Part shown: positions 11,479 through 57,381 of the stretch, in pieces
Numbering within the stretch: position 1 is the first letter of the stretch
Layout of the letters: the number at the start of each line of letters is the position of its first letter
NCBI RefSeq assembly: GCF_902167635.1
Contig: NZ_CABHMS010000001.1
Coordinates: 372,001-436,000 of the forward strand
From: Chitinophaga vietnamensis
GTDB taxonomy: Bacteria > Bacteroidota > Bacteroidia > Chitinophagales > Chitinophagaceae
Length of the DNA: 64,000 nt
Direction: 5' to 3'
Program-made: the position numbers and the translations under genes
The notes under the pieces: model-generated
Seen by the model: only the letters and a program-made list of their open reading frames with translations
Databases searched by the model: none
Told to the model about the DNA's origin: nothing

Positions 11479-12252
11479 TTAGAAAAAAAGAAGATACCTG
11501 TCGCCTTCCTGGTATATCACGGGCTCCAGTTGATAGGCGCTACGTATGTTCGCTGCCGTTAGTACCGTCTCCCGCGGGCCGCTGCTGATCAGCTTTCCAT
11601 GATGCAGCAGCAGAAGGTTGTCGGCAAAGCGCGCTGCGATGTTCAGATCATGTACTACCCCTACGATCACGAGGTCTTTCTGTTGCAGGAGTTGTTTCAG
11701 CTGTTGCATGAACTGGAACTGGTAATGCACATCGAGATAGGTGAGGGGCTCGTCCAGCAACAAGTAACGGCAGCCGCCCGCCACCGGCTCCCATATCTGC
11801 GCCATGATGCGCGCAAAATGTACCCTTTGTTTTTCTCCGCCTGAAAGGCTCATGTAGTCGCGGTTTTCCAGCGCCTGCAAGTCGAACAGCTCCATGGCCT
11901 CCTCGCAGCAGGCCAGGTCTTTCGGCCTCGCCGTACCCGCCATATGTGGGTATCTTCCCATCATCACCACTTCTCTAACGGTTAAAGGGAAAGACAATTC
12001 CATGTGCTGTGAAAGAGCGCCGCGTATCTGCGCCAATGATTGATAAGAAAACGTTTGCAGGTCTTTGTCTGCATAATATACTTCCCCGCTATGAGGCTTT
12101 AATTGTCCGGCCGCAATTTTCAGCAGGGTCGACTTCCCCGCGCCATTAGGCCCGATCACCAGGTGCAGCTGCCCCGGCGCAAAAGTGGTATTGACATCCT
12201 GCAACAGGGTATGGTGGCCCGCCCGATAGGTGATATTGGAAAGACGTAACAT
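11479..12252 (-). CDS. hmuV: Haemin ABC transporter ATPase HmuV
   Basis: A 257-residue ABC ATPase. Walker A is GPNGAGKSTLL (about residues 34-44), the signature is LSGGEKQRVHFAR, and Walker B is YLLLDEPLTYLD. The insertion of a non-conserved stretch before Walker B and the overall length are typical of HmuV. It powers haemin import through HmuU. Its start overlaps the last base of hmuU, and it is the final gene of a receptor-hmuT-hmuU-hmuV operon. Confidence 0.9.
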   Translation of the reverse strand: MLRLSNITYRAGHHTLLQDVNTTFAPGQLHLVIGPNGAGKSTLLKIAAGQLKPHSGEVYYADKDLQTFSYQSLAQIRGALSQHMELSFPLTVREVVMMGRYPHMAGTARPKDLACCEEAMELFDLQALENRDYMSLSGGEKQRVHFARIMAQIWEPVAGGCRYLLLDEPLTYLDVHYQFQFMQQLKQLLQQKDLVIVGVVHDLNIAARFADNLLLLHHGKLISSGPRETVLTAANIRSAYQLEPVIYQEGDRYLLFF

Positions 12253-13280
12253 CAGAAATAATAGTTTTTCTTTCTGAGCAGTAAGATAAATACCGGTACG
12301 CCGGCGATGCTGGTAACGATACCGATGGGCAGCTCTGCGGGCCGCAGCAGCAGGCGGGCGGCGATATCGGCCAAACTGAGCAGGATGGCGCCCGCCAGCG
12401 CGCCGGCGATGAGGAGGTAGCGGTTATCGGCACCTTTCCAGATGCGCAGGAAATGCGGTACCACCAGTCCTACAAAGCTGATCACGCCGGTGAAGGCCGT
12501 GACGACCGCGATCATGATCACATTGATCACCAATATCTCCCTTTTGAGCCGCTGCACGGAAACGCCCGCCAGCAGCGCTTCTTCTTCTCCCAGTATCAAG
12601 AGGTTGAGGGGCCGTGCCTGTGCGAGCGCCCGCCAGAAGCACAGCGCCAGCACAATGCTGGTGATGATCACTGCATGCCAGTTAGCGCCCGACAAAGTAC
12701 CGAGGTTCCAGAAGGTGATGGAGCGCGCCTGCGGATCACGGGCGATGTAAGATAAAAAGCCGGTGCCACTAAGAAACAGCGCATTGATGGCGATGCCCAT
12801 CAGCAGCAGGGTAACGATGGCCGTTTTGCCGGCCTGCTTTTTCTCCGCCAATCCCAGTACGAGGAAAGTGGCCAGCAGCGCGCCGCTGCAGGCCGCGAGC
12901 GGCAAGGTCCACTCGCCGGCATGATAGTGGAAAGTGGCGCCTAATACAAAATAGAGGGCGGCGCCGAAGGCCGCGCCGCTGGAAGTGCCTATCAGTCCGG
13001 GTTCTACGATAGGGTTGCGGAAGAGGGCCTGCATCAGTACGCCGCCTACGGCCAGCGCTGCGCCGGCGAGCAGGCAGAAGAGCGTGCGCGGCAAGCGTAT
13101 CTGCAGGAAGATGCGCTCCTGTAAAGAAAGATCGCCGTTGCCCGTGAGCGCCTTGCGGCCGGCGCTGAAGATATCGCCGGCGCTGATGTCCACTGCACCA
13201 AAACTGGCAGACAACAACACCGTGATACACAGCATTACTAACAGTAACGGATATACGCCATTATATTGTTTATTTACCAT
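12252..13280 (-). CDS. hmuU: Haemin ABC transporter permease HmuU (FecCD family)
   Basis: A 342-residue integral membrane protein of the FecCD/BtuC type. It has about ten helices and carries RLPRTLFCLLAGAALAVGGVLMQALFRNPIVEPGLIGTSSGAA, the family's conserved second and third helix region, plus FVGLVVPHFLR. It overlaps hmuT by 11 bp at its start and hmuV by one base at its end, indicating translational coupling. Confidence 0.92.
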   Translation of the reverse strand: MVNKQYNGVYPLLLVMLCITVLLSASFGAVDISAGDIFSAGRKALTGNGDLSLQERIFLQIRLPRTLFCLLAGAALAVGGVLMQALFRNPIVEPGLIGTSSGAAFGAALYFVLGATFHYHAGEWTLPLAACSGALLATFLVLGLAEKKQAGKTAIVTLLLMGIAINALFLSGTGFLSYIARDPQARSITFWNLGTLSGANWHAVIITSIVLALCFWRALAQARPLNLLILGEEEALLAGVSVQRLKREILVINVIMIAVVTAFTGVISFVGLVVPHFLRIWKGADNRYLLIAGALAGAILLSLADIAARLLLRPAELPIGIVTSIAGVPVFILLLRKKNYYF

Positions 13281-38375: not shown

Positions 38376-38711
38376 ATGGGAAATACAGGCGTGAGAAAGA
38401 CGAAGAACTTCAACCCTACCAATTGTGCGGTAACCTTTTGTATGAATATCATTGGTGGCAAATGGAAACCGGTGATCATACATCTGATCTGCAATCATAT
38501 CAACCGCTATAGCCTGATGCAGAAAGCGATTCCGGAGGCCAGCAAGCAAACCATCAGCAATCAGCTGCGTGAGCTGGAAGCAGACGGCGTTATTGAAAGG
38601 ATCGTGTATGCAGAGGTGCCGCCGAGAGTGGAATACAAGATGACAGCATACGGCAACAGCCTGTTACCGATCATCGACGCGATGAGGTTGTGGGGAAAAG
38701 AGCATATGTAA
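38376..38711 (+). CDS. HxlR-family transcriptional regulator
   Basis: 111 residues with the HxlR winged helix: NCAVTFCMNIIGGKWKPVIIHLI carries the conserved N-terminal Cys and GGKWK. ASKQTISNQLRELEADGVIERIVYAEVPPRVEYKMTAYG spans the recognition helix and wing. Family members often sense thiol-reactive compounds through that Cys. It probably controls the divergent MBL hydrolase. Confidence 0.9.
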   Translation: MGNTGVRKTKNFNPTNCAVTFCMNIIGGKWKPVIIHLICNHINRYSLMQKAIPEASKQTISNQLRELEADGVIERIVYAEVPPRVEYKMTAYGNSLLPIIDAMRLWGKEHM

Positions 38712-38740
38712 CCTTAATGATAGGATTCCTTACATTATTA

Positions 38741-38777
38741 TAAACAATGTCAAAGGCCTGGCCTTTGACATTGTTTA
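38741..38777. terminator. Bidirectional terminator, 18-bp perfect arms
   Basis: The arms 38741-38758 and 38760-38777 are exact inverted copies with a single central T. It lies between hxlR and the convergent lanthipeptide-like gene, serving both. Confidence 0.85.
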
Positions 38778-38788
38778 TTACATTGCTA

Positions 38789-38938
38789 TCAGAAGCAAAG
38801 CAGTGTAATCCGGCAACCAGGGCAGGTGGTCTGCGCGAGGGATGTCAGGCAAACCGCTCCTTTCTGTTGGGGTTTACTAAGGTTGGCAATTTTGATCTTT
38901 GCCAGATGCAGTTTTTTGGGTGTGATGTCTTTTTTCAT
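38789..38938 (-). CDS. Class I lanthipeptide-like precursor peptide (orphan)
   Basis: A 49-codon gene read from ATG 38938 to TGA 38789. The N-terminal half, with KKLHLAKIKIANLSK (residues 8-22), matches the Lys/Leu-rich leader of Bacteroidota class I lanthipeptide precursors. The last about 22 residues hold four Cys (30, 39, 42, 48) and five Thr/Ser (32, 33, 37, 38, 45), as expected of a lanthionine core. No GG site is present; a cut near Q24-Q25-K26-G27 is possible. No LanB, LanC, protease or exporter gene is in the window. A perfect terminator follows the stop, and the ATG overlaps the end of a short upstream frame (39066-38935, ATGA overlap). The family call is by pattern, without a search. 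Confidence 0.68.
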   Translation of the reverse strand: MKKDITPKKLHLAKIKIANLSKPQQKGAVCLTSLAQTTCPGCRITLLCF

Positions 38939-39185: not shown

Positions 39186-40088
39186 CTACATCATGTTCGG
39201 CAGTTCTTTCAGCGCAAATGCTATAAAGTCTTTTTGAAGCCTGTTTTGATGAGGAAGCGTAACCAGGCACCAGCACCTTTTCGAGAAATCATCTTTAAAA
39301 GGAATCATTTTTAAATCATTGTTCAATAGAGGCGCAATGAGCCATTTTGCCATCACTGCAATTCCGAGATTTAATTTAACCATTTCCAGTATGACCTCTG
39401 TCAAAGGCATTTTTATTACCCTGGCAGGCGCGGCCCTGTTGGGTTTCAGGACATTTTCGATCAGGTCATTATCTTCTACATCATAAGTAATCAATGTTTG
39501 TTCCCTGAAATCCACTGGGTATATCTGCTTTTGCTTTGAGAGTGGATTTTCTTTACTGACAATAACTACCAGTTCATCCTGAAAAACCGGCGTATATTTG
39601 AACGAAGGGTTATCGTGCAAGGGCTGCTTTGCAAGTCTGCTCACCAAGGCCAGGTCCAGGCTTCCATTTTGCAAATGAGACAAAGGGCTCCGGGTAGCGC
39701 CGTCCATGATCTGTACTGTTACGGCAGGACTGATCTGGTTGTATTTCTTGACCAGCCTGGGCAGCCAATTGTAAGTAGTATAGCATTCCGTGCTGATGTG
39801 GATCGTTCCACTCTCGCCAGTCTTTAAAGACTGGATTTCCTGCTCGAGTTTTTGAAGTTCCGCCAGCACAACGGTAGCGCTATTGATCATTTTTCTGCCA
39901 ATGGGTGTGAGGTATAGTTTCTTGCTCTTTCTTTCAAAAACTTTAGCGCCTATTTTCTTTTCTAATTCCTGAACGTGGTGGCTCAGGGCAGATTGAGAGA
40001 TGTAAAGCTTTTCAGCTGCGCGGGTCATAGAGCCTTCCTTTTCAATAGCGCTGATCACTGTCAGGTGATGCAAATTGATATTTAACAT
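39186..40088 (-). CDS. LysR-family transcriptional regulator
   Basis: 300 residues from MLNINLHHLTVISAIEKEGSMTRAAEKLYISQSALSHHVQELEKKIGAKVFERKSKKLYLTPIG, a complete LysR HTH. The periplasmic-binding-like effector domain spans about residues 90-295. It is divergent from the creatininase gene (102 bp gap) and probably regulates it. The 247 bp between its end and the lanthipeptide-like gene show no convincing coding sequence or TAnnTTTG box. Confidence 0.92.
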   Translation of the reverse strand: MLNINLHHLTVISAIEKEGSMTRAAEKLYISQSALSHHVQELEKKIGAKVFERKSKKLYLTPIGRKMINSATVVLAELQKLEQEIQSLKTGESGTIHISTECYTTYNWLPRLVKKYNQISPAVTVQIMDGATRSPLSHLQNGSLDLALVSRLAKQPLHDNPSFKYTPVFQDELVVIVSKENPLSKQKQIYPVDFREQTLITYDVEDNDLIENVLKPNRAAPARVIKMPLTEVILEMVKLNLGIAVMAKWLIAPLLNNDLKMIPFKDDFSKRCWCLVTLPHQNRLQKDFIAFALKELPNMM

Positions 40089-40190
40089 GAGCGAATTAGA
40101 TTGATAATTCAAAATTAATTCATTGTTTTCATAGATATCTGTGTAATAGTTTTACGGTAGGAAATGAAAAAAATTATTTAACCAAAGCAT

Positions 40191-43221: not shown

Positions 43222-44400
43222 ATGCAAGACGCGTATATAGTAGCCGGTTACCGCACTGCGGTAGGTAAGTCAAAAAGGGGAGGATTTCGTTTTTACAGGC
43301 CCGATGATCTCGCCGTGGATGTGATCACCGGATTGCTCAAATCCGTACCACAGCTGGATCCCAAACAGGTCGATGACCTCATCGTGGGGAATGCTGTGCC
43401 GGAAGCCGAACAGGGACTGCAAATAGGTCGCATGATATCTGTAAGAGCGCTGGGCATCGATGTGCCAGGTATGACCGTCAACCGCTATTGCGCCTCCGGC
43501 CTGGAAACCATCGCGATCGCTACCGCCAAGATACAGACCGGCATGGCCGATTGTATCATCGCCGGCGGCACCGAAAGTATGAGCATGGTACCCGTTGCCG
43601 GCTGGAAAACAGTACCCAACTATACTGTTGCCAGCACCAATCCCGACTATTACATCGGTATGGGACTCACCGCTGAAGCAGTGGCCAACGAATTCAAAGT
43701 AAGCCGCCAGGACCAGGATGAGTTCTCTTATAAATCCCATCAGAAAGCACTGAACGCGATCCAGAACGGCTATTTTAAATCCGGTATACTGCCTATCAAT
43801 ATTGAAGAAGTATATGTAGATGACAAAGGCAAAAAGCAAAAACGTAATTACATTGTTGATACCGACGAAGGACCACGTGCAGACACCTCGCTCGAAGCGC
43901 TCAGTAAACTGAAGCCCGTGTTCGCTGCCAATGGTACTGTAACAGCGGGCAACTCTTCTCAAACCTCCGATGGCGCTGCTTTTGTGATCGTGATGAGTGA
44001 AAGGATGATCAAAGACCTCGGCCTTAAACCAATCGGCCGATTGGTATCCTGCGTATCCGCCGGCGTACATCCGCGTATTATGGGTATCGGCCCGGTAGCT
44101 GCTGTGCCCAAGGCTTTGAAGAGAGCCGGTAAAACCTTACAGGACATCGATCTCGTAGAACTTAACGAGGCTTTCGCTTCACAGTCTATTGCTGTGATCC
44201 GCGAGTTAGGCATCAATCCCGATATCGTGAATATCAATGGTGGTGCGATCGCATTGGGGCATCCGCTGGGATGCACTGGCGCTAAACTCACCGTACAATT
44301 GTTGGGTGATATGAAACGCCTTCATAAAAAATACGGCATCGTTACGGCCTGCGTAGGCGGCGGGCAGGGCATTGCCGGCGTTATAGAGAATATTGATTAG
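43222..44400 (+). CDS. Acetyl-CoA C-acyltransferase (thiolase)
   Basis: 392 residues of the thiolase family. The acyl-accepting Cys90 is in VNRYCASGLE. His347 is in GGAIALGHPLGCTGA and Cys377 in ACVGGGQG. It condenses or cleaves acyl-CoA and acetyl-CoA (fatty-acid beta-oxidation or acetoacetyl-CoA formation). It stands alone here, without the usual 3-hydroxyacyl-CoA dehydrogenase partner next to it, so the pathway direction is not fixed. A strong terminator follows. Confidence 0.95.
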   Translation: MQDAYIVAGYRTAVGKSKRGGFRFYRPDDLAVDVITGLLKSVPQLDPKQVDDLIVGNAVPEAEQGLQIGRMISVRALGIDVPGMTVNRYCASGLETIAIATAKIQTGMADCIIAGGTESMSMVPVAGWKTVPNYTVASTNPDYYIGMGLTAEAVANEFKVSRQDQDEFSYKSHQKALNAIQNGYFKSGILPINIEEVYVDDKGKKQKRNYIVDTDEGPRADTSLEALSKLKPVFAANGTVTAGNSSQTSDGAAFVIVMSERMIKDLGLKPIGRLVSCVSAGVHPRIMGIGPVAAVPKALKRAGKTLQDIDLVELNEAFASQSIAVIRELGINPDIVNINGGAIALGHPLGCTGAKLTVQLLGDMKRLHKKYGIVTACVGGGQGIAGVIENID

Positions 44401-53333: not shown

Positions 53334-55112
53334 TTACGCATTTTCAAATTTACGTTCCCCGATCTGTTGGCGCCACATCGCGTAGTAAAGCCCTTTTTCT
53401 TCCAGCAGGTCAGCATGGCCGCCGGTTTCCACGATACGTCCTTTTTCAAGCACGTAGATGCGGTCGGCATGCATGATGGTGGACAAGCGATGTGCGATCA
53501 TCACGGTGATATGCTGGCGGGTAGCGGTGATCTCGCGCACCGTGCGGCTGATCTCTTCTTCTGTGATGGAGTCGAGCGCGGAAGTGGCCTCGTCAAATAC
53601 CATCAGTCGCGGCTTGCGCAGCAAGGCGCGTGCAATAGACAGGCGTTGTTTCTCTCCACCGGATATTTTAATACCGCCTTCGCCGATCACTGTTTCAATG
53701 CCGTTGTCGGCGCGGGCCAGCAGCGAGTAACAGGAGGCTTTATCCAATGCATCCATTACCTCTTCATCGCTGGCGCCAGGGTTCACGAACAGCAGGTTTT
53801 CTTTGATGCTGCCCGCAAACAGTTGCGTGTCCTGCGTTACAAAGCCTACCTGGTGGCGCAGGGATTCCATATCCACTTCATTGGCATCCACGCCATTGTA
53901 GAGGATATGGCCTTCAGCTGGTTTGTAAAGGCCCACCAACAGCTTTACCAGCGTGGTTTTGCCGGAACCGGAAGGCCCCACAAAGGCAATGGTTTCGCCC
54001 AGCTTCACGGAAAAATTCACATTATCCAGTGCTTTGGTGCCGGCGGTGAGGTGCTTGAAGCCTACATGTTTGAATTGCAGTTCATCGATATGATTCACAT
54101 TCACCGGATGTGCCGGCAGCTCTTCTACCGGCGTATTCAGGATGCCCTGGAAATTGAGCAGCGACACCTGCGCTTCGCGGTAATTGAGGATGATATTGCC
54201 CAACTCCTGTAAAGGCCCGAAGATGAAGAAGGAATAGAGCTGTAAGGTCATCAGCTGCCCCAGCGTCGTATAGCCGCGGTAGATATAGAACAGCAGCAGG
54301 AAGAGGATCGACTGGCGCATCAGGTTCACAAAGGTGCCCTGCACAAAACTGATACTGCGGATGCTGCGTACTTTCTTCAGTTCCAGCACCAGTATTTTCA
54401 AAGTGGTGCTGTTGAGGCGGCGGATCTCCTGGTTGGTGAGGCCAAGGCTTTTCACCAGCTCAATGTTACGCAGCGATTCCGTGGTAGAACCCGCGAGGGC
54501 CGTGGTTTCCTTCACAATGGTCTTTTGTATCACCTTGATCTTTTTGCTCAGCACATTCATGAGAAGGCCCAGCAGCACACAGCCGATGATGTACACGAAA
54601 GGCAAGGTCCAGTGCACAGTGGAGGAGTAGACGATCACAAAGATCACACCGATGAGCGATACGAATAATACGTTCACAAAGGAGGTGATGAACTTTTCAC
54701 AGTCGGTGCGCACCTTTTGCAGGATGGCCAAAGTTTCGCCGCTGCGTTGATCTTCAAACTGCTGGTAAGGCAGGCGCAGCGAGTGTTTGAGGCCGTCGGT
54801 ATACACCTGTGCGCCGAATTTCTGCACGATCACATTTACAAAATAATCCTGAAATGCCTTCGCAATGCGCGATACCATCGCCACGCCGATAGCGGCGCCC
54901 AGTAACAATAATACGCCGTTCAGGTAAACGCCTTCCGGGCGGAATACGCCGCCAGTCTTGGCTGTGCTGGCCGGGTGCGATCCGAATTGATCAATGATAC
55001 GGCCAAAGATCCATGGGTCCAGTAATGAAAAGAGCTGGTTCACCGTTGCCAGCAGCATCGCCCATACACACAACCATTTGTATTTCTTGAGATAATGTAA
55101 GAGTAGTTTCAT
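53334..55112 (-). CDS. ABC exporter, fused permease/ATPase (MsbA/BmrA type)
   Basis: 592 residues. An N-terminal six-helix exporter domain covers residues about 1-320. The C-terminal ATPase has Walker A GPSGSGKTTLV, signature SGGEKQRLSIARAL, Walker B LMVFDEATSALD and switch MIAHRLST. It is a half-transporter that dimerises to export lipids, drugs or peptides. The substrate is unknown. It heads a two-gene operon with DUF983 and is divergent from the EF-G paralogue. Confidence 0.92.
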   Translation of the reverse strand: MKLLLHYLKKYKWLCVWAMLLATVNQLFSLLDPWIFGRIIDQFGSHPASTAKTGGVFRPEGVYLNGVLLLLGAAIGVAMVSRIAKAFQDYFVNVIVQKFGAQVYTDGLKHSLRLPYQQFEDQRSGETLAILQKVRTDCEKFITSFVNVLFVSLIGVIFVIVYSSTVHWTLPFVYIIGCVLLGLLMNVLSKKIKVIQKTIVKETTALAGSTTESLRNIELVKSLGLTNQEIRRLNSTTLKILVLELKKVRSIRSISFVQGTFVNLMRQSILFLLLFYIYRGYTTLGQLMTLQLYSFFIFGPLQELGNIILNYREAQVSLLNFQGILNTPVEELPAHPVNVNHIDELQFKHVGFKHLTAGTKALDNVNFSVKLGETIAFVGPSGSGKTTLVKLLVGLYKPAEGHILYNGVDANEVDMESLRHQVGFVTQDTQLFAGSIKENLLFVNPGASDEEVMDALDKASCYSLLARADNGIETVIGEGGIKISGGEKQRLSIARALLRKPRLMVFDEATSALDSITEEEISRTVREITATRQHITVMIAHRLSTIMHADRIYVLEKGRIVETGGHADLLEEKGLYYAMWRQQIGERKFENA

Positions 55113-55251: not shown

Positions 55252-57381
55252 ATGAAAACGTATGATGAAAAACACATTAAAAACATCGTACTGTTAGGCG
55301 CAGCCAAGAGCGGAAAAACAACCCTGTCTGAAACCATGTTATTTGAAGCCGGTATTATCAGCAAGCGCGGAACAGTAGAGGAAAAGAATACCATCTCCGA
55401 TTACCACGAAATCGAGTATGAGCGCGGTAATTCTGTGTATGCCACTTCTATGCATACCGAATGGAGAGATTACAAGATCAACATCATCGATACTCCGGGT
55501 CTGGAAGACTTTATCGGTGAAGTAATCTCCTCGATACGCGTATGCGACACTGCAATATTACTGCTCAATGCACAATATGGGGTAGAGGTAGGCACGGAGC
55601 TCGTCTGGGATTATGTGGATAAATACCGCAAACCCACTATCCTCGCGGTAAACCAGCTGGACGGAGAGCAGGCGAACTTCACGAAAACGGTAGACGAGGC
55701 TAGAAGGGTATTGGGCAATGCTGTCACCGTGATGCAGTATCCCGTTAACCAAGGCCCCGGCTTCAACGCCATCATCGATCTCCTCAAAATGACCCTCTAC
55801 CGCTTTCCTGAAAATGGAGGAAAACCCGAAAAACTCCCCATCCCCGACAACGAAAAAGAACGAGCCGAACAACTCCACAATGAGCTCGTCGAAAAAGCCG
55901 CCGAAAATGATGATACCCTGATGGAACAATACTTTGAGAAAGGTAATCTCGATGAAGATGAACTGCGCCAGGGCCTCAAGATAGGCATGCTCAAACACGA
56001 TGTATTTCCTGTATTCTGTCTCTCCGCAAAAAATAATATGGGCAGCGGCCGCCTCATGGGCTTTATCGACAACGTTGCGCCATCAGCCATCGAAATGCCG
56101 CCCGACATTACCGAAGAAGGCAAGGAAGTGCCCTGCGATCCTGCCGGCCCCACCTGCCTCTTTGTGTTCAAAACCTTGCAGGAACCACATATCGGCCGGC
56201 TAACCTTTTTCAAAGTAATGTCCGGAGAAGTTAAACCCGGCATGGAACTTATCAACGAAAAAGGGAATACTACCGAACGCATTTCACAACTGTTCATCGC
56301 TGACGGCAAAAACCGCAATAACATAGACCGCCTCCGGGCAGGCGATATCGGCTGTACCCTCAAACTGAAAAATACGCTGACCAACCATACCCTCTGCGAC
56401 AAAAGCTTCCGCGGACAGATAGACCCCATCCACTTCCCCGCGCCCAAAGTACGCGTGGCCATCGAAGCCAGGAACAAGGCCGATGATGAAAAGATGAGCG
56501 AAGTGCTGGCCGAAATACACATGGAAGACCCTACCCTCGAAGTAGAGTTTAACCGCGAACTGAAACAGGTGATCCTCCACGGCCAGGGCGATCTGCACCT
56601 CCTCGTCACGAAATGGCGGCTGGAAAATATTTACAAGATGCAGGTAGAATATTCAGCCGCTAAAATACCTTACCGCGAAACCATCCAGAAGCCGGCCATG
56701 GCTTCTTACCGCCATAAGAAACAATCCGGCGGCGCCGGCCAGTTCGGGGAAGTGTTCATGAAAATAGAACCCTGGTACGAAGGCATGCCCCCGCTAAAAG
56801 ATTTCCCTGTACGGGAAACAGAAGAGATCGCGCTCAGCTGGGGCGGCAAGCTGGTATTCAACAATTGTATCGTAGGCGGCGCTATAGATGCACGTTTCCT
56901 GCCATCCATCCTCAAAGGCGTAATGGAAAAAATGCAGGAAGGCCCACTAACGGGATCGTATGTACGCGATATCCGCGTGAGCGTGTATGATGGCAAAATG
57001 CACCCGGTAGACAGCAACGATATCTCCTTCAAGATCGCCGGTATGATGGCCTTCCGCGACGCTTTCCACCAGGCGGCGCCACAGCTGCTGGAACCTGTGT
57101 TCGACCTCGAAGCTACCGCCCCCGATGTAATGATGGGCGATATCATGAGCGAGCTACAGAGCCGCCGCAGCATTATAACGGGCATGGATACACTAAATGG
57201 ATACCAGGTGATCAAAGCCCGCACGCCGCAAGCGGAGCTGGACAAGCTCTTTGCCGCGCTGCGCAACGTCACGCAAGGCAAGGCCAAGGTCAGGTCTGCC
57301 TTTGCAGAATATGCACCTGTGCCAGCCGATGTGCAAAAGAAGCTCAGCGAAGACTACAAGAAAACTGAAGCAGAAAATTAG
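55252..57381 (+). CDS. EF-G paralogue with degenerate GTPase (EF-G2 type)
   Basis: 709 residues with all five EF-G domains: G domain about 1-270, domain II from about 300, domain III (APKVRVAIEA), domain IV (IPYRETIQKPAMASYRHKKQSGGAGQFGEV) and domain V (PDVMMGDIMSELQSRRSIITGMD). The P-loop GAAKSGKTT (16-24) is intact. Switch I reads ERGNSV instead of ERGITI, the G3 motif reads DTPGLEDF with Leu84 in place of the catalytic His, and G4 is NQLD (134-137) instead of NKxD. It may therefore support translocation with little GTP hydrolysis, as reported for Bacteroides EF-G2. It is not the housekeeping fusA: no ribosomal genes adjoin. Confidence 0.9.
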   Translation: MKTYDEKHIKNIVLLGAAKSGKTTLSETMLFEAGIISKRGTVEEKNTISDYHEIEYERGNSVYATSMHTEWRDYKINIIDTPGLEDFIGEVISSIRVCDTAILLLNAQYGVEVGTELVWDYVDKYRKPTILAVNQLDGEQANFTKTVDEARRVLGNAVTVMQYPVNQGPGFNAIIDLLKMTLYRFPENGGKPEKLPIPDNEKERAEQLHNELVEKAAENDDTLMEQYFEKGNLDEDELRQGLKIGMLKHDVFPVFCLSAKNNMGSGRLMGFIDNVAPSAIEMPPDITEEGKEVPCDPAGPTCLFVFKTLQEPHIGRLTFFKVMSGEVKPGMELINEKGNTTERISQLFIADGKNRNNIDRLRAGDIGCTLKLKNTLTNHTLCDKSFRGQIDPIHFPAPKVRVAIEARNKADDEKMSEVLAEIHMEDPTLEVEFNRELKQVILHGQGDLHLLVTKWRLENIYKMQVEYSAAKIPYRETIQKPAMASYRHKKQSGGAGQFGEVFMKIEPWYEGMPPLKDFPVRETEEIALSWGGKLVFNNCIVGGAIDARFLPSILKGVMEKMQEGPLTGSYVRDIRVSVYDGKMHPVDSNDISFKIAGMMAFRDAFHQAAPQLLEPVFDLEATAPDVMMGDIMSELQSRRSIITGMDTLNGYQVIKARTPQAELDKLFAALRNVTQGKAKVRSAFAEYAPVPADVQKKLSEDYKKTEAEN

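Follow-up and report, generated by a model that had tools for sequence, protein, structure and literature searches.

The minus-strand gene at 38789–38938 raises the question of whether so short a reading frame encodes a genuine lanthipeptide precursor (LanA) and, if it does, which enzymes would act on its product. Class I chemistry consists of dehydration by LanB with glutamyl-tRNA and thioether formation by LanC. The window considered here is the whole 64,000-nucleotide stretch that was analysed, which corresponds to C1:372001-436000 of a 6.3 Mb genome in 15 contigs (G000). The gene and its parts are placed as follows.

38789–38938, minus strand: class I lanthipeptide-type precursor gene, 49 codons plus stop (ORF translation, relatives, pN/pS)
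38876–38938, minus strand: putative leader, residues 1–21, MKKDITPKKLHLAKIKIANLS (NF038153 match over residues 1–27; 25.2 bits on the local-leader profile described below)
38879–38911, minus strand: LxLxKx5L leader motif, residues 10–20, exact fit (read from the translation)
38792–38851, minus strand: Cys/Thr/Ser-rich core, C30 to F49 (C30, T32, S33, T37 and C39 invariant, C42 and C48 in at least 90% of 31 sequences)

As far as sequence can tell, this is a real, conserved precursor gene of the class I lanthipeptide type. Its translation, MKKDITPKKLHLAKIKIANLSKPQQKGAVCLTSLAQTTCPGCRITLLCF, carries the motif LxLxKx5L, which PMC7268733 gives as the leader motif of Bacteroidetes class I LanAs. The peptide matches the class I lanthipeptide leader model NF038153 with an E-value of 4.9e-4 and a score of 20.2 bits (19.7 bits in a six-frame search), below the curated cut-off of 22 bits, which is a threshold for database naming and not a defining trait of a LanA. 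The same model is matched at E ≤ 0.1 by 26 of 31 aligned family members, and the class I lanthipeptide-like leader proposed in the earlier note is upheld on these grounds. The count of four Cys and five Thr/Ser (T32, S33, T37, T38 and T45) in the core from C30 to F49 was likewise as claimed. No Pfam family was matched by the window peptide, and a GG site is absent from it.

A single-sequence search at E ≤ 0.01 found matches in 31 of 148 relatives' genomes, the window's own included, all of them in one genus; the best relative in another genome aligned over residues 1–48 with an E-value of 3.1e-17. The 49-codon minus-strand gene described from the letters is thus real, with relatives in 30 other genomes. 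A chance reading frame, which the shortness of the gene and its position in a gap between longer genes might suggest, is extremely improbable and was rejected on account of those relatives and of a pN/pS of about 0.4. At E ≤ 1e-5, a family profile detected members in 31 of the 79 genomes of the genus, and 28 of these scored above 45 bits, in 52 places. Internal stops were absent from 50 of these 52 strong places, and the other two (G065 and G047) have one near the end of the match, so that the gene is not, as a rule, frameshifted in close relatives. In an order-wide draw of 396 genomes, in many of which only 17 candidates were scored, the profile found six matches, five in this genus and one weak (28.7 bits, with a stop). 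The named matches listed, at least 11, all belong to Chitinophaga and include C. eiseniae, C. fulva, C. filiformis, C. rupis and C. ginsengisoli.

Among the 31 aligned family members, M1, K8, L10, L12, K14, L20, C30, T32, S33, T37 and C39 are invariant, and K2, K9, K16, A18, C42 and C48 are conserved in at least 90%; because these members were chosen from fetched loci by pattern and similarity, this is conservation within the family as drawn. The family core begins with C.TS...T[TS]C, usually followed by C and T..C, and its invariant positions are all Cys, Thr or Ser. Pairs at least 70% identical among the 49-codon coding sequences (10 of 50) give a leader pN/pS of 0.39 and a core pN/pS of 0.43, i.e., amino-acid changes are held back about equally in both parts. 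Six members (L037, L038, L040, L041, L042 and L044) stop shortly after CPxC and do not have the last T..C part of the core.

Those genes of the window around the precursor gene that are mentioned in the text are listed here.

11479–13280: ABC_tran/FecCD pair, not adjacent to the peptide gene
38376–38711, plus strand: HxlR-type regulator, convergent neighbour, outside the system (PF01638, E 4.8e-27)
39186–40112, minus strand: LysR-type regulator, upstream neighbour, outside the system (PF00126 and PF03466)
43222–44400, plus strand: thiolase, positional anchor (homologs in four other loci)
53334–55112: generic ABC exporter (ABC_membrane and ABC_tran), lying 14 kb away from the peptide gene and giving no match to a C39 peptidase

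The window had been said to contain no LanB, LanC or transporter. The first two are indeed missing, as tblastn with 139 LanBs and one LanC returned no match in the 64 kb at E ≤ 1e-5; the third part of the claim does not strictly hold, given the genes at 53334–55112 and 11479–13280, neither of which adjoins the peptide gene. In 34 family loci (mostly 18.5 kb, with about 9 kb on either side of the gene), tblastn likewise gave no LanB or LanC match at E ≤ 1e-5, and no neighbouring gene recurs in more than five other loci of these 34; hence no local enzyme was found. The usual cluster with LanB and LanC was therefore not encountered around the 38789–38938 gene, either in the window or in the 34 loci. 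Among the matches listed, the LanB nearest to the window gene on its contig lies 378 kb away. Of the 52 strong family places, 15 are tandem copies near one of the remaining 37, and these 37 were compared with the 150 LanB rows listed. The nearest listed LanB on a shared contig was at 67 kb, so that none fell inside 60 kb; for seven of the 37, the contig itself ends within that distance. Family members are unlinked to LanB and LanC wherever tested. In the window genome and in L219, L220, L230 and L243, the peptide genes have the same thiolase gene as a neighbour at no more than 9 kb, which suggests that this group has been inherited in place; the other family loci have different common neighbours or none. 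That the relatives also lie away from the enzyme genes suggests one central enzyme set for dispersed precursors. Tandem arrays of three to six peptide-gene copies with variable cores and no LanB nearby were observed in L219 (G022), L043 (G016), L039 (G011), L228, L230 and L231.

Enzymes of the expected kind are encoded elsewhere in the genome. A genome-wide search, as proposed in the earlier note, located four LanBs (PF04738 and PF14028) and, for LANC_like, four matches; all of them lie outside the window, and three of the LANC_like matches adjoin a LanB. The LanB family was divided with a FastTree phylogeny of 139 of the 150 listed loci, 11 having been dropped for frames under 330 aa; all 139 ORFs are at least 850 aa long. 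One monophyletic group, clade A (support 100), comprises 48 LanBs, one in each of 48 of the 79 genomes, and is represented in the window's genome by the L077 module at about C4:249-255 kb, in which both the LanB and the LANC_like domains are full length. By our pattern, one to six local precursors accompany the LanB in all 48 clade A loci, with leaders that resemble KKLSLGKIKVASLS and are of the type KKLxLxKIK[IV]A.L[SN], like the window leader. When ORFs of 90 aa or longer were compared over stretches of up to 12.5 kb, the LanC cluster of L077 and a LuxR-type response regulator cluster (e.g., L077:9427-10056) were present in 48 of 48 loci, and the next commonest cluster occurred in 23; no near-universal transporter or protease was found beside the LanB in these 48 stretches. 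LanBs outside clade A are mostly accompanied by GG leaders wherever the pattern finds a precursor. A LANC_like match in an 890-aa frame with no listed LanB near it (L026, G000:C4:154738-155745) may belong to another lanthipeptide enzyme class.

The resemblance between the window leader and the clade A leaders was measured with a local-leader profile constructed from 45 of the 73 distinct clade A local leaders, the family itself being excluded. All 31 family members scored between 16.7 and 41.1 bits (median 23.5), with the window peptide at 25.2 bits, compared with a median of 2.4 and a maximum of 19.9 for 131 GG leaders, 23 of which reached at least 12 bits. An earlier comparison of two HMMs had placed 27 of the 31 members with clade A over GG, often narrowly. 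The residue after LxL is often A, T or V in the family and in the majority G among local leaders. Across genomes, the profile matched in all 48 with clade A and in three of 31 others (G054, G059 and G067), i.e., in three of the eight that have a LanB outside clade A and in none of the 23 without any LanB; the local matches in the 48 genomes are circular, as the profile was built from such leaders. The clade A genomes hold 256 profile matches as against 124 local precursors, and a surplus is present in 42 of the 48, which is an upper estimate because the pattern misses some local precursors (in G001 all three listed matches lie at the module). The other leaders of the window type that were sought have thus been found, both beside clade A LanBs and dispersed.

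In two of the exceptional genomes, L247 (G054) and L248 (G059) retain two local precursors and the LanC, with no clade A LanB in the 18-kb stretch, so that precursors can outlive their enzyme. By the same token the window gene might be a relic, the descendant of a lanthipeptide precursor that is no longer processed and is kept by chance or for some other reason, and the six listed family members that end just past CPxC could be read in this way. A relic is nevertheless quite unlikely: changes in the core are held back about as much as those in the leader, the invariant core positions are those of Cys, Thr and Ser, neither G054 nor G059 has a member of the dispersed family at E ≤ 1e-5, and in several genomes the gene has multiplied into tandem copies. 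The third exceptional genome, G067, harbours a divergent family member together with 13 such leaders; it yielded no clade A LanB, and its LanB L201 joins the sister group of clade A with a support of 93, as judged by distances and counts.

The distribution of the family over the 79 genus genomes was compared with that of LanB. A LanB is present in all 28 family genomes as against 56 of 79 overall (hypergeometric 4.0e-6). The clade A LanB occurs in 27 of the 28 and in 21 of the 51 genomes without the family (counts 27, 21, 1, 30; Fisher 3.7e-7), and inclusion of two sister LanBs gives 28, 22, 0, 29 (p 4.7e-8); these statistics ignore kinship, apart from a subset defined by marker identity. The marker was an EF-G-like gene at 55252–57381 of the window, named from its sequence, with matches in 75 of the 79 genomes. 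Among the 32 genomes at least 86% identical in it, the link between family and clade A is weak (17, 9, 1, 5; p 0.043), and the counts for any such leader are 26, 0, 3, 3 (p 0.004).

Some other LanB of the window's genome might modify a true class I precursor in trans, either the stand-alone enzyme at C1:787 kb or one of the GG type. The stand-alone LanB (L075, G000:C1:787-790 kb) is full length, with no local precursor by the pattern and no LANC_like match nearby. Its clade (15 LanBs, support 98) occurs in only two of the 28 family genomes, and wider clades in eight and nine of 28; as the main enzyme it was rejected for this reason. The GG-type group is present in 16 of 28 family genomes and in four of the 51 others (p 3.0e-6), and a 19-member part of it in 16 and three (p 7.5e-7). 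This correlation nearly equals that of clade A, which indicates that shared descent contributes to the co-occurrence. GG-type LanBs, however, adjoin GG leaders; most of these obtain low scores with the local-leader profile, and a GG is missing from the window peptide. Modification by either of these enzymes is accordingly regarded as unlikely.

It is also conceivable that the peptide belongs to another modified class (e.g., one of radical-SAM type) or is a small unmodified Cys-rich peptide with a lanthipeptide-like leader. One of the 31 members matches TIGR04149, a family of rSAM-modified RiPPs, at an E-value of 7.9e-4, and two give weak matches to a CxxC thiol-disulfide oxidoreductase model (best E 0.017); metal binding or disulfide formation by the CPxC part would be possible. 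Given that 26 of the 31 match the class I leader model, that the leaders match those found beside a LanB/LanC pair, and that a LanB is encoded in every family genome, such an assignment is very unlikely.

The reading that we favour, and consider probable on sequence evidence, is that the gene encodes a class I LanA on which the clade A LanB and LanC act in trans, one enzyme set serving local and dispersed precursors alike. The LxLxKx5L leader would be bound by the clade A LanB at about C4:249-255 kb, which is encoded with the LanC and the LuxR-type response regulator; the LanB would then dehydrate Thr and Ser of the C.TS...TTCPGC..T..C core using glutamyl-tRNA, and LanC would add Cys thiols to form thioether rings, of which T45–C48 would be the plainest TxxC ring. 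Maturation would be completed by a protease and an exporter encoded elsewhere. The precursor gene would be stably dispersed, and the set in the window's genome would serve one local and at least five dispersed precursors, that of the window included. The gene, its conservation, its unlinked position, the existence of the LanB/LanC set and the matching leaders were observed; for the window peptide we infer the acting LanB, the chemistry (by analogy with class I enzymes in general), the rings, export and cleavage. Processing by a distant enzyme set, the central suggestion of the earlier note, is now better supported than before by way of inference, because unlinked placement recurs throughout the genus and one LanB clade has matching leaders beside it.

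The window's genome contains eight profile matches. Of the 11 precursors scored in it, six have more than 16 bits, and these are spread over C1 (that of the window), C2 (three), C3 (one) and C4 (the local one). The other dispersed precursors have cores unlike that of the window peptide. Precursors with the same leader and cores of the SNSSC..VCPT and APTTTV types, with no clade A LanB or LanC in the stretch, were seen in L255 (G000:C2:931 kb), L257, L259, L263 and L264. A broader reading, to which we give about an even chance, is that the LanB-LanC-LuxR module, with no conserved transporter or protease beside it, may be a chromosome-wide platform for a dispersed and multiplying precursor library, including at least two other unlinked core types. 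Such a module would be to class I what the prochlorosin system is to class II, and mining of gene clusters would reveal no more than the one to six precursors encoded locally.

Several known systems resemble this one in part. The window gene shares with the Bacteroidetes class I LanAs (PMC7268733; NF038153) the exact leader motif, a Cys/Thr/Ser core and the presence of LanB and LanC in the genome, but it differs in having no adjoining LanB or LanC and no GG site, and in scoring 20.2 bits against the cut-off of 22. The prochlorosins and synechococsins, the substrates of ProcM and SyncM, are described as encoded by scattered single precursor genes among unrelated neighbours and served by one enzyme (PMC10783134). 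The scattered layout is alike, and the window's precursor system may be likened to the prochlorosins in this respect; for Chitinophaga, service by one enzyme is a proposal. The prochlorosins are products of a class II LanM with Nif11-family GG leaders in cyanobacteria (PMC10783134), in contrast to the class I LanB and LanC and the LxLxKx5L leader without GG in Bacteroidota. Lanthipeptides with unclustered proteases are also products of split pathways, in which the distant part is the protease (PMC8960859) and not, as here, the precursor. The class I lanthipeptides of Pedobacter lusitanus and the pinensins come from the same phylum and depend on class I enzymes (PMC7268733, PMC12328550).

Chitinophaga is a genus known for antifungal lanthipeptides, and the pinensins come from it. 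The P. lusitanus lanthipeptide and pinensin clusters keep precursor and enzymes together, unlike the window precursor, which lies apart from LanB and LanC. No paper on unlinked class I precursors in Chitinophaga was found among the titles and abstract starts listed from open PMC, a scope that makes for weak evidence of novelty. Mining that begins with LanB and LanC and then inspects their neighbourhood would be expected to miss unlinked precursors, and the local-leader profile is a simple means of finding them. If one class I set does serve a dispersed library, the products of Chitinophaga would outnumber those expected from its clusters, ProcM could be equalled in permissiveness by class I enzymes, and the handling of diverse cores by one LanB would be directly testable with a natural set of substrates.

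Possible transcription signals were also considered. TAnnTTTG is a Bacteroidota promoter consensus; it was found upstream of none of 50 family members, compared with a shuffle mean of 2.1. Downstream hairpins with a fold z-score below −3 follow 27 of 50 family genes and 35 of 150 control ORFs (letter shuffles in both), which indicates that hairpins are enriched downstream of family genes yet not specific to them. The one behind the window gene is as follows.

38740–38778, no strand: perfect 19-bp palindrome with a 1-nt spacer, possible shared bidirectional terminator (sequence read; fold)

It was not among the calls of a terminator scan, in our reading because it has no T run. The fold of 38735–38800 has an energy of −29.6 kcal/mol and a z-score of −7.2. 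The gene had been credited with its own perfect terminator: the palindrome is indeed perfect, but as it lies between the convergent 3' ends of the precursor and HxlR genes it may, if it is a terminator, serve both.
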